Origin: Weeksellaceae bacterium
GTDB lineage: Bacteria; Bacteroidota; Bacteroidia; Flavobacteriales; Weeksellaceae
DNA: 64,000 bases
Direction: 5' to 3'
NCBI GenBank assembly: GCA_019459455.1
Contig: JAIBEX010000014.1
Location: forward strand, 124,001-188,000
How positions within the stretch are numbered: the stretch's first letter is position 1; each line of letters opens with the position of its first letter. This document shows, piece after piece, positions 23,896 through 60,298 of the stretch. Made by a program: the position numbers and the translations under genes. The notes below the pieces were generated by a model that was not told where the DNA came from, did not search any database, and saw only the letters and a list, made by a program, of their open reading frames with translations.

Positions 23896-23930
23896 AAAAT
23901 GGGTTTAACGGTTAGGATGACATATATGAC

Positions 23931-24473
23931 TTAGAGTTCCGACTTATGTTTGGCGCCAGCTTTCTTCAGCATGTCGTAATATCTTTTCAATGTTGGTTCT
24001 GCTGGTAAACCCTTGTTCCTTTCGATTTGACTTTGAACGTAATCCAAAACAGTCCTTCCATCAGTTTCATCAACTTTATTAAAGTTAACCTTCCATTGGG
24101 CCATATCAAGGATGAACTCATCAAACTTGAGATTTACGGCAAATTTTATTAGATTCCCATTGGTGACATCAAACTTTGTATTGTTACAAATTAATGTTCT
24201 TTCATTTTCTGCCCAAACTTTTGAAATTTTCTTGCCTATTTCTTCTTCGCTGTCTTTTTTCACGTCAACACATGCAGCCTCAAGGAATTTTCTTTGATAT
24301 TTCCAAACAAATCTTCCCTGTGGATTTGGATCTTTTTCAGCACTATCTACAAACATACACAACCCACGCAGTTTCTTCGGATTGGGGCAGGGCGTGGTTT
24401 CGGTGGTTTGGGCAAATACAGCAGACGCTGAAATGGTGACCGACAATAGGGTGAGCAATAAACGGTTTTTCAT
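23931..24473 (-). CDS. Secreted protein, tandem family copy 3
   Basis: 180 residues with signal peptide (…ASAVFAQ). Conserved with its two neighbours across the whole length: TPCPNPKKLRGLCMFVDS, GRFVWKYQRKFLEAAC, EEIGKKISKVWAEN, LICNNTKFDV, and the end DGRTVLDYVQSQIERNKG then AGAKHKSEL. The end is reminiscent of the last turn of an ankyrin repeat. Cysteines in the first and middle blocks are conserved, fit for disulfides in the periplasm. No function known. Confidence 0.8.
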   Translation of the reverse strand: MKNRLLLTLLSVTISASAVFAQTTETTPCPNPKKLRGLCMFVDSAEKDPNPQGRFVWKYQRKFLEAACVDVKKDSEEEIGKKISKVWAENERTLICNNTKFDVTNGNLIKFAVNLKFDEFILDMAQWKVNFNKVDETDGRTVLDYVQSQIERNKGLPAEPTLKRYYDMLKKAGAKHKSEL

Positions 24474-24491
24474 GTGGTGAGGAATTATTAG

Positions 24492-25034
24492 TTACAGTTC
24501 CGACTTATGTTTTGCGCCTGCATCTTTTAACATTTGATAGTATCTTTTCAAAACCGGCTCGGTGGCAAGACCTTTGTTGGCTTCAATCTGAGAGTGCACA
24601 TAATCCAGAACAGTTTTTGCGTCAGTTTCATCGACCTTGTTCAAATTAACTTTCCATTTGGTTACATCAATCAAGAATTCATCAAATTTTAGATTCACAG
24701 CAAACTTAATTATGCTTCCATTCGCTACATCAAATTTTGTGTTGTTGCATATCAACGTGCTTTCATTCTCTGCCCAAACTTTTGCTATTTTCTTTCCAAT
24801 CTCTTCTTCACTATCAATTTTGACATTAATACAAGCAGCCTCTAAAAGCTTTCTCTGGTACTTCCATACGAAACGTCCCTGTGGGAATGGATCTTCTTCC
24901 TTACTACTCACAAACATACACAATCCACGCAACTTCTTCGGATTTGGGCAGGGCGTGGTCTCGCTGGTTTGGGCCGATACAGCAGACGTTGAAATGGTAA
25001 GGGACAAAATGGTGAGTAGTAATAGATCTTTCAT
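24492..25034 (-). CDS. Secreted protein, tandem family copy 2
   Basis: Same family as its neighbours, 180 residues, signal peptide ending SAVSAQ. It differs most in the segment FLIDVTKWKVNLNKVDETD and in ANKGLATEP. Spacing of 18 bp to the copies on either side and co-orientation imply one transcript. Amplification with divergence suggests selection for variants, for example in surface or immunity roles; this is inference. Confidence 0.8.
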   Translation of the reverse strand: MKDLLLLTILSLTISTSAVSAQTSETTPCPNPKKLRGLCMFVSSKEEDPFPQGRFVWKYQRKLLEAACINVKIDSEEEIGKKIAKVWAENESTLICNNTKFDVANGSIIKFAVNLKFDEFLIDVTKWKVNLNKVDETDAKTVLDYVHSQIEANKGLATEPVLKRYYQMLKDAGAKHKSEL

Positions 25035-25052
25035 GACGTGATAATTAAATAT

Positions 25053-25601
25053 TTACAGTTCCGACTTATGTTTTGCGCCCGCTTTTTTGAGCATTTCATA
25101 ATACTGTTTTAGAGTAGGTTCTGCAGGAAGACCTTTATTTCGTTCGATTTGAGATTGAACATAATCAAGAACAGTCCTTCCATCCATCTCATCTACTTTA
25201 TTAAGATTGATTTTCCAATGTGCAACATCAATCACAAACTCATCAAACTTTAAATTTACTGCAAATTTTATGATGTTTCCATTCGCAACATCAAACTTGG
25301 TGTTATTACAAATCATGGACTTTTCGTTTTCCTGCCATACCTTCGCAATCTTTTTTCCAATCTCTTCTTCGCTGTCTTTTCTCACGTCAATACATGCAGC
25401 TTCTAATAATTTCCTCTGATATTTCCAGACGAAGCGACCTTGCGGCTTAGGATCCTTTTCTTTGCTATCCACAAACATACACAACCCACGCAACTTTTTC
25501 GGATTCGGGCAGGGCTCTGAAGAGGCCTCTGTAGTTTGGGAAGTTGCAGATGTAAAGAAAAACAGGAGAAATAAAATGAGCAGCTGGAAAGGGTTCTTCA
25601 T
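25053..25601 (-). CDS. Secreted protein, tandem family copy 1 (first in transcript)
   Basis: 182 residues, signal peptide ending FTSATSQ. The mature part again carries EPCPNPKKLRGLCMFVDSKE, KVWQENEKSMICNNTKFDV and DYVQSQIERNKGLPAEP. It is the most upstream copy, so it probably has the promoter for the three. No known family. Confidence 0.8.
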   Translation of the reverse strand: MKNPFQLLILFLLFFFTSATSQTTEASSEPCPNPKKLRGLCMFVDSKEKDPKPQGRFVWKYQRKLLEAACIDVRKDSEEEIGKKIAKVWQENEKSMICNNTKFDVANGNIIKFAVNLKFDEFVIDVAHWKINLNKVDEMDGRTVLDYVQSQIERNKGLPAEPTLKQYYEMLKKAGAKHKSEL

Positions 25602-52860: not shown

Positions 52861-53511
52861 TCACCATGGATCTTCTTGTCCGTTTATATAATTGACACTC
52901 CCCGACATGCTCCCGTTCTCATGATAGAATTTCCAATTCCCTTCTGCCTTTCCTTCTATAAAATTTCCTATGGATTTCAGTTTTCCATTTTCATGATATT
53001 CCTTCCATTCTCCTTCCGCTTTTCCGTCTTTATTATTTCCGGTTTTTTGGAGATTTCCGCTTGCATAATAACCCTTAGCCTCTCCTTCTGCTTTTCCTTC
53101 TTTGAAATTTCCGGTTGATTTCAATTGTCCACTTGCATGATATTCTTTCCATTCTCCTTCCTCTATTCCGTCTTTAAAATTGACAACCTCACCCAGGTTT
53201 CCGTTTTCAAAATAACCCTTAAATTCTCCTTCTGGTTTTCCGTCTTTAAATTTTCCGATTGATTTCAGTTTCCCATTTTCATAATATCGCTTCCATTCCC
53301 CTACTTCCTGTCCTTTTATATAGCTGCCGATTATACCCAGTTTTCCATTTTCATGATAGAATTTCCATTCTCCTTCTTTTATATCCTCTTTAAGATGGCC
53401 GGTCTCCGACAGGTTCCCGTTTTTATGGTAACTTTTATGTTCTCTGGTTTGTGTGAAGAAAGAAACACTAAACAGCAAAAATGCTGCGGTAATAAATGTT
53501 TTTGTGATCAT
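52861..53511 (-). CDS. YwqK-type (MORN-like) repeat protein, secreted
   Basis: 217 residues from ATG 53511 (MITKTFITAAFLLFS) with signal peptide. Then a string of about eight 23-24-residue repeats of the type GEWKFYHENGKLGIIGS / WKRYYENGKLKSIGKFKDGK, as in YwqK antitoxins and MORN proteins. The DNA repeats are 69 bp long and close to each other in sequence, so recombination could change copy number. Annotated antitoxins of this type usually have unknown partners; none is visible here. Confidence 0.85.
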   Translation of the reverse strand: MITKTFITAAFLLFSVSFFTQTREHKSYHKNGNLSETGHLKEDIKEGEWKFYHENGKLGIIGSYIKGQEVGEWKRYYENGKLKSIGKFKDGKPEGEFKGYFENGNLGEVVNFKDGIEEGEWKEYHASGQLKSTGNFKEGKAEGEAKGYYASGNLQKTGNNKDGKAEGEWKEYHENGKLKSIGNFIEGKAEGNWKFYHENGSMSGSVNYINGQEDPW

Positions 53512-55844: not shown

Positions 55845-55922
55845 CGCCGCTGCCGCACGATTCCTATCGTGTGGCTACTACAACATTTTAAAACCTGTTA
55901 CAAATCAAATGTTCTTAATACA
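55845..55922. repeat. REP unit A1 (short loop)
   Basis: Hairpin GCCGCACGA-TTCCTA-TCGTGTGGC followed by a tail that, on the minus strand, encodes LRTFDL and a TAA stop (55898-55900), the same C-terminus as the truncated RAYT at 59.1 kb. Forms a direct dimer with A2, stems 80 bp apart. Confidence 0.85.
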
Positions 55923-56000
55923 ACCCCCGCTGCCGCGCGAAATCGAAGATTCGACGAAGTCAATCCTATCGCGTGGCCACCATATAGTAAAACCGGTTAC
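55923..56000. repeat. REP unit A2 (long loop)
   Basis: Stem GCCGCGCGA/TCGCGTGGC enclosing a 28-nt loop (AATCGAAGATTCGACGAAGT then CAATCCTA), followed by the shared ACCATATAGTAAAACCGGTTA tail. Similarity stops at 56000, before the codons for the RAYT C-terminus. Confidence 0.85.
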
Positions 56001-56270
56001 CTTTCATAGCTTCCGGCTTCGGTTCCAAAATCAAAATTACTGATTTTTCTCCATCAAAACGGTGCACCGTTGCACTACACCGTATCTAAAATGAAGCGGT
56101 GCGAATTTTGTTATTGATTTAAATGCCCGTGGGGCAATGGACAGATCAGCAGAAAACTGCACCAAAGTTCTGCATCGTCAGAAGGCCGGCACACGGTCCT
56201 TGCTGCGGTGATCAAACGCCCGCCCCTCCTTTGTAAACAGAAATATCTATCTTTATTTAAATATTTGAAT

Positions 56271-58440: not shown

Positions 58441-58500
58441 CTCCGGCTCGAAGTGAGGAAATCGAAGATTCGGCGTAGCCACACTTCGCGCAGCTCGGAG
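58441..58500. repeat. REP hairpin, type B (long loop)
   Basis: CGAAGTG/CACTTCG stem (58449-58455 with 58482-58488) enclosing a 26-nt loop, AGGAAATCGAAGATTCGGCG then TAGCCA. The loop matches the loop of the type C element at 60235-60280 in 24 of 26 bases. Outer arms CTCCG/CGGAG also pair. Confidence 0.8.
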
Positions 58501-58976: not shown

Positions 58977-59052
58977 ATCCCCCGCTGCCGCGCGAATCCT
59001 TTCGCGTGGCCACCATATAGTAAAACCGGTTACAAGTCAAATGTCCTAAATA
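58977..59052. repeat. REP unit A3 (short loop)
   Basis: Stem GCCGCGCGA/TCGCGTGGC (58987-58995 with 59002-59010), short loop. The tail encodes FRTFDL-stop on the minus strand (59030-59050), identical to the RAYT C-terminus at 59126. Direct dimer with A4, stems 75 bp apart. Confidence 0.9.
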
Positions 59053-59150
59053 CCCCCCGCTGCCGCGCGAAATCGAAGATTCGACGAAGTCAATCCTATC
59101 GCGTGGCCACCAATAGTAAAACCGGTTACAAATCAAATGTCCTAAATACA
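59053..59150. repeat. REP unit A4 (long loop), joined to the truncated RAYT
   Basis: Stem at 59062-59070 with 59099-59107, loop with the same GAAATCGAAGATTCGACGAA module as A2. Its tail is the 3' end of the RAYT gene itself, including codons FRTFDL and the stop at 59126. Confidence 0.9.
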
Positions 59151-59398
59151 ACTACATCATCCAACAGTCCTTTTTCATCCGCATAATCAACTGCACTGCT
59201 ATACCCGTAATCTTCTGCTCTGTAAACCAATCCCGCTTCAACAGGATTCTGATGCACATAATTGATTTTCTGCTTAATGACATGGTTGCTCCATAATTCG
59301 ATGGGTTTATTATCATGGTGCCAAAACTGATAATTCGTAACATTCGAACTCTTTTCTGCCTCTCTTCTAAATGCTTCCAATAAAAAATCTTTACGGCT
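59126..59398 (-). pseudogene. Truncated REP-associated tyrosine transposase (RAYT-1)
   Basis: Only the C-terminal part remains: SRKDFLLEAFRREAEKSS, then NYQFWHHDNKPIELWSNHVI and QNPVEAGLVYRAEDYGYSSA. Alignment with the complete RAYT-2 starts at its residue 99 or so, so the HUH-containing first half is missing. The break is immediately at a type C REP hairpin, suggesting replacement of the 5' half by the neighbouring REP array. The 3' end is also the tail of REP A. Confidence 0.85.
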
Positions 59399-59404
59399 TC
59401 TCGC

Positions 59405-59430
59405 TCAGCAAAGTCTCCTGACTTTGCGTT
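59405..59430. repeat. REP unit C, copy 1
   Basis: GCAAAGTC-TCCT-GACTTTGC (59408-59427). Preceded on the minus strand by codons QFFRFRNYEE and stop (59440-59472), a copy of the RAYT-2 C-terminus. Confidence 0.9.
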
Positions 59431-59477
59431 AAAAAATACTCATTCTTCATAATTACGAAATCTAAAAAATTGCCGCG

Positions 59478-59505
59478 CTCCGCAAAGTCTCCTGACTTTG
59501 CGCTA
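59478..59505. repeat. REP unit C, copy 2
   Basis: CGCAAAGTC-TCCT-GACTTTGCG (59481-59502). Preceded by codons FRNYEE and stop (59514-59534). Confidence 0.9.
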
Positions 59506-59540
59506 AAAAATATTCATTCTTCATAATTACGAAACCTCGC

Positions 59541-59566
59541 TCCGCAAAGTCTCCTGACTTTGCGCT
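59541..59566. repeat. REP unit C, copy 3 (adjacent to RAYT-2)
   Basis: GCAAAGTC-TCCT-GACTTTGC (59544-59563), 14 nt after the RAYT-2 stop codon. Stem-to-stem distances in the array are 74 and 62 bp. Confidence 0.9.
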
Positions 59567-59577
59567 TTAACAAAAAC

Positions 59578-60186
59578 TCATTCTTCATAATCACGAAATC
59601 TAAAAAATTGTGAAGTTTTTGAAGTGTCAATCACAGGATTGTCAGCAAGTTCTACATCGATAATTCCTTTGCCCAAAACGTAATTGGAAGCCGATGAATA
59701 GATAAAATGCTGTGGCTTTTCCACAAGGCCTGCACGCACAGGATTAAGATGAATATAATTGAGTTTGTCCCAAAGAAAATGAAGTGAATACACTTCCTCC
59801 GCATGATTTCCATATTGCCAAAACTGAAAATTTTTATTCCTTGAATGGCTTTCCGTCGCATTTCTAAAGCGTTCGAGCATCCATTCTCTGCGGCTTTCGG
59901 GTTCGTTTTGGATGGCATGCAAAATACGTGTTGCAGTAAATTTCTTAAAATCGCGGACAAGGTCTGACAGTTTTCCATCCTGCGACTGAATAATCAAATG
60001 AATATGATTGCTCATGATAACATAACCATAAAGGATCATCCCTTTATCCTGAATACAAAATTTCAGACAGTTGATGACAATATCCCGGTAACCAAGCCTG
60101 GTGAAAATATCAATCCAATCGACCACCGTACAAGTGATGAAATGCGCTTTGGTTTGGTCTCGGATCACGTATCCTTCTTTCATCAT
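59578..60186 (-). CDS. REP-associated tyrosine transposase (RAYT-2)
   Basis: Y1-type HUH single-strand transposase domain. YGYVIMSNHIHLII carries the HUH-like pair H61/H63. DFKKFTATRILHAIQ, WMLERFRNATESHSRNK, NYIHLNPVRAGLVEKP and FIYSSASNYVLGKG follow the RAYT order. The catalytic Tyr cannot be assigned with certainty. 202 residues, complete. It is flanked by type C REP hairpins on both sides (59405-59566 and 60235-60280), the arrangement expected for a RAYT and its cognate REPs. RAYTs cut and move REP hairpins, and are usually single-copy and domesticated. Confidence 0.92.
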   Translation of the reverse strand: MMKEGYVIRDQTKAHFITCTVVDWIDIFTRLGYRDIVINCLKFCIQDKGMILYGYVIMSNHIHLIIQSQDGKLSDLVRDFKKFTATRILHAIQNEPESRREWMLERFRNATESHSRNKNFQFWQYGNHAEEVYSLHFLWDKLNYIHLNPVRAGLVEKPQHFIYSSASNYVLGKGIIDVELADNPVIDTSKTSQFFRFRDYEE

Positions 60187-60234
60187 TTAAAGATAGGATT
60201 ATCTGGGACAATATTGTTAAATATGACCGACAGT

Positions 60235-60280
60235 GCTCAAAGTCAGGAAATCACAGATTCGGCGTAGCCAGACTTTGAGC
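60235..60280. repeat. REP hairpin, type C with long loop
   Basis: GCTCAAAGTC/GACTTTGAGC perfect 10-bp stem around a 26-nt loop (AGGAAATCACAGATTCGGCG then TAGCCA). 48 bp upstream of the RAYT-2 start codon. Confidence 0.9.
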
Positions 60281-60298
60281 AGCAGGTAATATACGCTC

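Follow-up and report, generated by a model that had tools for sequence, protein, structure and literature searches.

Why do short hairpin repeats beside a REP-associated tyrosine transposase (RAYT) gene carry the last codons of that gene? The question arises in a 64,000-nucleotide stretch of a Weeksellaceae genome, here called the window, where a sequence-only reading had proposed that three consecutive REP units beside the gene RAYT-2 repeat its C-terminus and that a second set of REPs, family A, repeats the C-terminus of RAYT-1. We found that the observation is real, and that it is largely a new instance of a described phenomenon, to which an anchoring rule, junctions between REP families and mobility of the element are added. 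On the minus strand, the order is left REP, RAYT-2, right REP, unit 1, unit 2, the RAYT-1 remnant, a family-A REP and a further family-A unit (Table 1).

Table 1. Features of the RAYT locus and of the second family-A array, in coordinates of the window
Position	Strand	Feature	Basis or remark
55847..56003	-	Second family-A array, two units, one with a RAYT-1-type tail (LRTFDL-stop)	
58979..59053	-	Truncated family-A unit: tail codons, stop, spacer and family-A REP	
59054..59125	-	Spacer following the RAYT-1 remnant, then a long-loop family-A REP	ends in GCAGCGGGGG
59126..59399	-	RAYT-1 remnant, a 274-nt fragment from the coding 3' end, lacking the HUH part	
59400..59472	-	Truncated unit 2: last 11 codons including stop (from CAATTT), spacer and REP	
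59473..59534	-	Truncated unit 1: last 7 codons including stop (from TTTCG), spacer and REP	
59535..59565	-	Right REP of RAYT-2, GCGCAAAGTCAGGAGACTTTGCGGAGCGAGG	12 nt past the stop
59578..60186	-	RAYT-2 coding sequence, predicted 202-aa REP-associated tyrosine (HUH, Y1) transposase	NCBIfam, Pfam
60235..60285	-	Long-loop left REP, inverted, of the RAYT-2 element	sequence, fold, relatives

RAYT-2 matched the curated RAYT model NF047646 at 94.1 bits (cutoff 80) and the Pfam model Y1_Tnp at 29.9 bits (cutoff 23), and it fell below the cutoff of the IS200 transposase equivalog model NF033573 (22.3 bits, cutoff 55). Its core contains SNHIH (HUH), WQ and the tyrosine motif YIHLNP, and residues N60, H61, H63, W123, Y144, N148 and P149 are invariant in an alignment of 39 sequences. 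The best PDB match of the predicted structure was 4er8, a RAYT bound to its REP hairpin (E 1.7e-4, probability 1.00), which was also the sole structural match at E <= 0.001; the sequence-profile match to 4er8 was weak (E 0.036). We regard the evidence for the fold as moderate, because the mean pLDDT of the model is 72, with stretches below 50 at residues 1-4, 23-25, 115-133 and 183-202. From these matches, RAYT-2 appears to be a REP-associated tyrosine transposase with the RAYT fold. Matches to it at E <= 0.001 were present in 81 of 197 genomes of the same family.

Both in the window and in close relatives, the gene is bracketed by inverted REPs. The left REP lies about 48 nt ahead of the RAYT-2 start codon and has a single-strand fold z of -4.65. 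The outer motif of the RAYT-2 REPs is GCAGCGGGG / CCCCGCTGC, and the REP foot has no GTAG-type guide tetranucleotide. A missing guide was also noted by Quentin et al. (2018) for TnpA-Y1 subclass 2.6, which they describe as having a YIH[QN]NP motif and atypical hairpins without GT[AG]G, mainly in Bacteroidetes. The YIHLNP of RAYT-2 is nearer to the subclass 2.1 motif, and the RAYT-1 remnant has YVHQNP.

With up to three mismatches, the RAYT-2 tail TTTCGTGATTATGAAGAATGA was found three times, at 59578-59598 (the gene), 59514-59534 and 59440-59460, and it had no match in 100 dinucleotide shuffles. Each of the three copies is followed by the perfect hairpin GCAAAGTC-AGGA-GACTTTGC, and the spacer between stop and hairpin is AT-rich in units 1 and 2. 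As single-stranded DNA, the three hairpins of this family, called B, folded with z of -5.1, -6.0 and -5.1 against shuffles. The tail matches and hairpins confirm that REP units beside RAYT-2 carry its last codons; the extra units are two and not three, because one of the three hairpins, the first, belongs to the end of the gene itself. Unit 1 begins at the outer end of the right REP of RAYT-2, and unit 2 begins at the outer end of the REP of unit 1. It had also been suggested that the duplicated unit spans the stop codon and the hairpin, and that the moved unit has one end inside the gene. Both suggestions are supported, the other, outer end being the REP edge. The locus thus has the rayt 3' end and the stop-to-REP spacer repeated between REPs, that is, a BIME-type array with a captured rayt 3' end.

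The RAYT-1 tail with its spacer also gave three matches, at 59117-59146, 59021-59050 and 55889-55918, and none in shuffles. The shuffles therefore rule out a chance origin of the repeated tails in both families, in agreement with what the sequence-only reading had argued. Its statement that family-A REPs carry the RAYT-1 C-terminus stands for three tails, of which one is the remnant's own end. RAYT-1 itself, previously treated as a gene, is a 5'-truncated remnant. It starts exactly at the outer end of the REP of unit 2, which places a family-A sequence on a family-B REP. Nor are the two families unrelated, as had been supposed: both match NF047646, the 89-aa RAYT-1 fragment at 32.7 bits, which is below the whole-protein cutoff of 80. 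Several intact RAYT-1 relatives (about 190 aa, same family) are bracketed by family-A REPs. The family-A hairpin folds marginally better than shuffles (z -2.0), and the REPs of both families end in a common motif, GCAGCGGGG or near it.

REPs of either family can also contain much the same insert in the loop, about 22 nt long (AAATCGAAGATTCGRCGNAGNC), as seen at 58446-58494, 60235-60283, 55924-55982 and 59054-59112 of the window; loop inserts resembling it occur in genome G048 and at loci L196 and L203. It looks as if a loop module had been exchanged between unrelated REP stems. Elsewhere in the window we noted a six-copy 72-nt tandem repeat (52907-53410) and a three-copy repeat spaced 561 nt (23925-25346).

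Across genomes, the truncated units have one fixed and one variable edge. Units with a whole hairpin stop at the outer end of the REP, and on the inner side, where the units are broken, they often lie directly against the outer end of another REP. The inner start points differ: in G118 two lie at codon 151 and one about 11 codons before the gene end, the truncated unit at L136 has 29 nt of coding sequence, and the fragments in G167 and G163 start within the hairpin itself.

A wide blastn scan yielded 96 raw truncated matches, many of them AT-rich chance matches. After those with less than 15 nt of coding sequence, less than 75% identity or a distance of 60 nt or less from the locus edge were dropped, 57 truncated tails were left. 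By a fixed criterion, a REP end lies directly upstream of 8 of the 57, compared with 95 of 20,000 random and 5 of 798 shifted positions. Among the 49 tails that fail, most are weak matches or adjoin other DNA or, as in the MITE type, RAYT 5' sequence or left REPs; about ten truncated tails are joined to other DNA, for example at L138, L145, L158 and L204. The fixed criterion misses junctions of the window type that were accepted by eye, such as that of unit 1. By eye, abutment on a REP end was accepted at 14 junctions: five in the window, including the unit at 55.9 kb, three in G118, and one each in G053 (contig C7), G117, G177, L136, G048 (one event, two loci) and L203. Eleven of these come from the blastn list, and the 55.9-kb unit, G048 and L203 were added from the sequence.

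The right edge is a whole REP at 11 of the 14 junctions; the hairpin is disrupted in G053 C7 and G117, and G048 keeps little beyond the end motif. Four junctions of the set cross families, namely the RAYT-1 remnant on a RAYT-2 (B) REP in the window, a family-A tail on a B REP in G048, and RAYT-2-type (B) tails on family-A REPs in G053 C7 and G117. At the break, the REP edge and the gene had no base in common in nine of ten junctions and one base in the tenth; these ten include two identical neighbours, and an eleventh row is internal to a unit. A mirror image was observed at the gene 5' end in G143 and G035, where stacked left REPs carry the first codons and the broken ends abut the outer edge of the next REP. 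The C-terminus is therefore not special. Two larger duplications, one in G048 (2.1 kb) and one in G117 (1.5 kb), likewise end at a REP edge. Taken together, the short repeats seem to carry the last codons because the end hairpin lies just past the stop and incomplete tail copies pile up at the hairpin edge.

There are signs that the REP-RAYT-REP element itself moves. Close RAYT-2 relatives are bracketed by inverted REPs (CCCCGCTGC...GCAGCGGGG): an inverted left REP (CCCCGCTGCGCAAAGTCTCC.GACTTTGAGC) precedes the start codon, and a right REP follows the stop at a distance of 3-12 nt wherever the REP pattern gave a match. G056 has two 692-nt copies, running from CCCCCGCTGC to GCAGCGGG, which are identical at 691 positions and are cut at exactly those ends. 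The sequence to their right differs, and over the 45 nt to their left the likeness (22 of 48 aligned columns) is about what chance would give. The left flanks still have something in common, since an older REP-like motif stands some 65-95 nt ahead of each copy, and the BLAST match therefore extends to 790 nt. In G129, five miniature copies with common exact ends occur in one stretch and a sixth on contig C8. This MITE-like element joins the left REP and about 10 codons to the last 30 or so codons and the right REP, an internal deletion. Similar fusions were found elsewhere, three of them at L147 and one in G053 C5, among others.

The older REP-like motif stands just upstream of each G056 copy (L113, 2455-2550 and 4287-4374), and beside the second copy a short RAYT-tail-like string follows it. 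It is as if REP remnants attracted insertion.

The number of units at a corresponding locus varies among related species (L154, L156 and L165; L168 versus L153). Compared with L188, L185 has about 330 nt of extra DNA (L185 3719-4048) exactly at the right REP edge. The first 260 nt duplicate the 3' end of the gene immediately preceding the element; from its translation we take this gene to be of MATE type, and the duplicated stretch would be host DNA captured beside a RAYT element. The copy matches its own upstream source at 253 of 260 positions and that of L188 at 246 of 260, with informative sites divided 11 to 4; this closer likeness to its own upstream copy favours a gain at L185. No empty site was found for the window, nor any synteny, in four genomes of its genus, its own included, and none for L185/L188 at the eight diverged loci inspected. 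Nor was an empty site found for G118, whose flanks, taken alone, have homologues in 21 of 23 genomes, its own included.

Is the tail then a general feature of REPs? We surveyed 20 genomes picked for RAYT-2 homologues, accepting sites with up to three mismatches. REPs were few, 0-20 sites per genome and 86 in all, so that in these 20 genomes they do not reach a high genome-wide copy number. The source genome has six such sites and one with four mismatches; three of these seven are at the RAYT-2 locus and one is at C14:425532. The inner side of 85 sites adjoined a RAYT 3' tail in 26 (intact genes included), the RAYT 5' side in 23 and neither in 36. None of the other three, the dispersed family-B hairpins inspected in the source genome, has a RAYT tail. 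By the sequence-only reading, the tail would be incidental if most genomic hairpin copies lacked it, and the dispersed copies inspected do lack it. We therefore rejected the tail as a general REP feature; it is a local by-product.

A diverged relic at C14:375.5 kb of the source genome (L014, about 1400-1530) resembles a RAYT-2 tail, stop, spacer and long-loop REP, and may be an exception among its dispersed REPs. At L138, the last 126 coding nt plus REP recur with 100% identity in a dispersed copy about 1.4 kb upstream of the RAYT, and this copy does not abut a hairpin. One long sequence (CCTTTACTTTGAATTC...) lies inside the REP hairpin at three places in G117 (L073, L099 and L100), which suggests an insertion element targeting REPs.

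We propose that the extra units are 5'-truncated copies of the element's 3' terminus, stacked at a REP outer end by RAYT-made joining, and we put the probability of this reading at roughly 0.55. The earlier idea that the units are abortive copies of the RAYT 3' end agrees well with it. As part of the same explanation, the RAYT-1 remnant and its unit would stem from the same process in a second RAYT family, and RAYT-2 with its two inverted REPs would be a transposon-like element. The RAYT would nick single-stranded DNA at the REP outer end, immediately after GCAGCGGGG, so that the REP would end in a 3'-OH and the flank would carry a 5'-phosphotyrosine. The nicked site would then be joined by a donor strand of which one end is a REP 3'-OH and the other is broken, and from such a donor one would expect a precise outer end and an inner end joined to the target REP without sequence specificity. 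We place the cut at the REP outer edge on the basis of the observed junctions and of the published TnpA-REP chemistry, in which a nick gives a 5'-phosphotyrosine and a free 3'-OH (PMC8266576).

The same junctions, those between families included, would also result from an adjacent deletion, running from a REP end and removing everything up to a point inside the next full RAYT element downstream. Transposase-linked deletions typically start at a transposon end, as this one would, and at least two RAYT copies lie close together in G056, L140, L154 and L170. Since no empty site was found for the window, for L185/L188 or for G118, adjacent deletion stays a live rival, although we consider it rather unlikely. 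It needs several closely spaced full copies, and those of G056 are more than 1 kb apart; the lengths carried are skewed short (20, 33, 33, 34, 48, 156, 156 and 274 nt of about 606; KS p 0.002 from eight values, of which two are identical neighbours); L185 looks like a gain; and the G167 and G163 fragments start inside the hairpin. We favour RAYT-made joining at REP ends over adjacent deletion.

A tandem duplication in which replication slips at the hairpin and unequal recombination follows, the RAYT playing no part, seems less probable still. Replication stalls at hairpins, and the identical units of G118 and those of Myroides L127 (period about 54) look like recombinational amplification; identical units can indeed come from ordinary unequal recombination. 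The lack of microhomology at nine of ten junctions, the coincidence of the outer edge with the transposon end and the cross-family junctions speak against slippage, and slippage by microhomology in particular appears disfavoured. That the tail is a functional part of the REP, such as a binding determinant for the RAYT, might be read from its recurrence in two families within the window; with REP sites lacking adjoining RAYT sequence in the survey and tail-less dispersed hairpins in the source genome, we find this hardly credible.

Known REPs can no longer be said to lie outside the RAYT frame, as Nunvar et al. (2010, PMC2817692) described four cases in which a BIME includes a rayt 3' end together with its stop-to-REP spacer, and proposed an amplification driven by RAYT nicks. 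As in those BIMEs, the rayt 3' end and spacer here lie in a REP array beside the gene; theirs are gammaproteobacterial, with GTAG-type REPs mostly at high copy number, unlike here. The fixed-edge rule, the cross-family junctions and the element mobility add to their account. The Y1 HUH gene bracketed by hairpins recalls REPtrons with TnpA-REP, such as the E. coli RAYT (Corneloup et al., 2021, PMC8266576), which differ from the present elements in that these have no GTAG, few REPs per genome and duplicates with exact ends. Corneloup et al. report no evidence of tnpAREP mobility, and the sections of PMC2817692 and PMC8266576 available to us give no sign of RAYT mobility. REPINs likewise combine two inverted REPs in a miniature mobile element and form tandem clusters beside RAYT genes (Bertels and Rainey, 2011, PMC3116915), whereas in the miniatures here RAYT codons can still be recognised at one end or at both. 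TIRtrons (Di Nocera et al., 2013, PMC3733652) also have tyrosine transposase genes between inverted repeats, with repeat copies elsewhere in some genomes and REP clusters that recur together with stretches of flanking DNA differing in length; their common motif is GGGGWSAS, and truncated coding tails are no part of their description in the accessible text. In the titles and abstract openings of open-access papers, we found no fixed-edge rule, one-ended RAYT insertion or mobile Flavobacteria RAYTs, and the anchoring rule, the cross-family junctions and the element mobility look new.

These findings touch on how REPs spread and whether RAYTs still move. Exact-ended duplicates, miniatures with gene ends, and units with one precise and one variable edge are natural products that show the reaction, and they predict a cleavage point testable in vitro. 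More tentatively, it is possible that RAYTs of Flavobacteriia perform one-ended, REP-targeted insertion, with a precise REP 3' end, a random 5' end and the outer end of a REP of any family, own or foreign, as target. If so, this would be a single-strand DNA counterpart of 5'-truncated LINE insertion, and REP arrays, RAYT tails and captured host DNA would be what failed transposition of a REP-RAYT-REP element that still moves has left behind.
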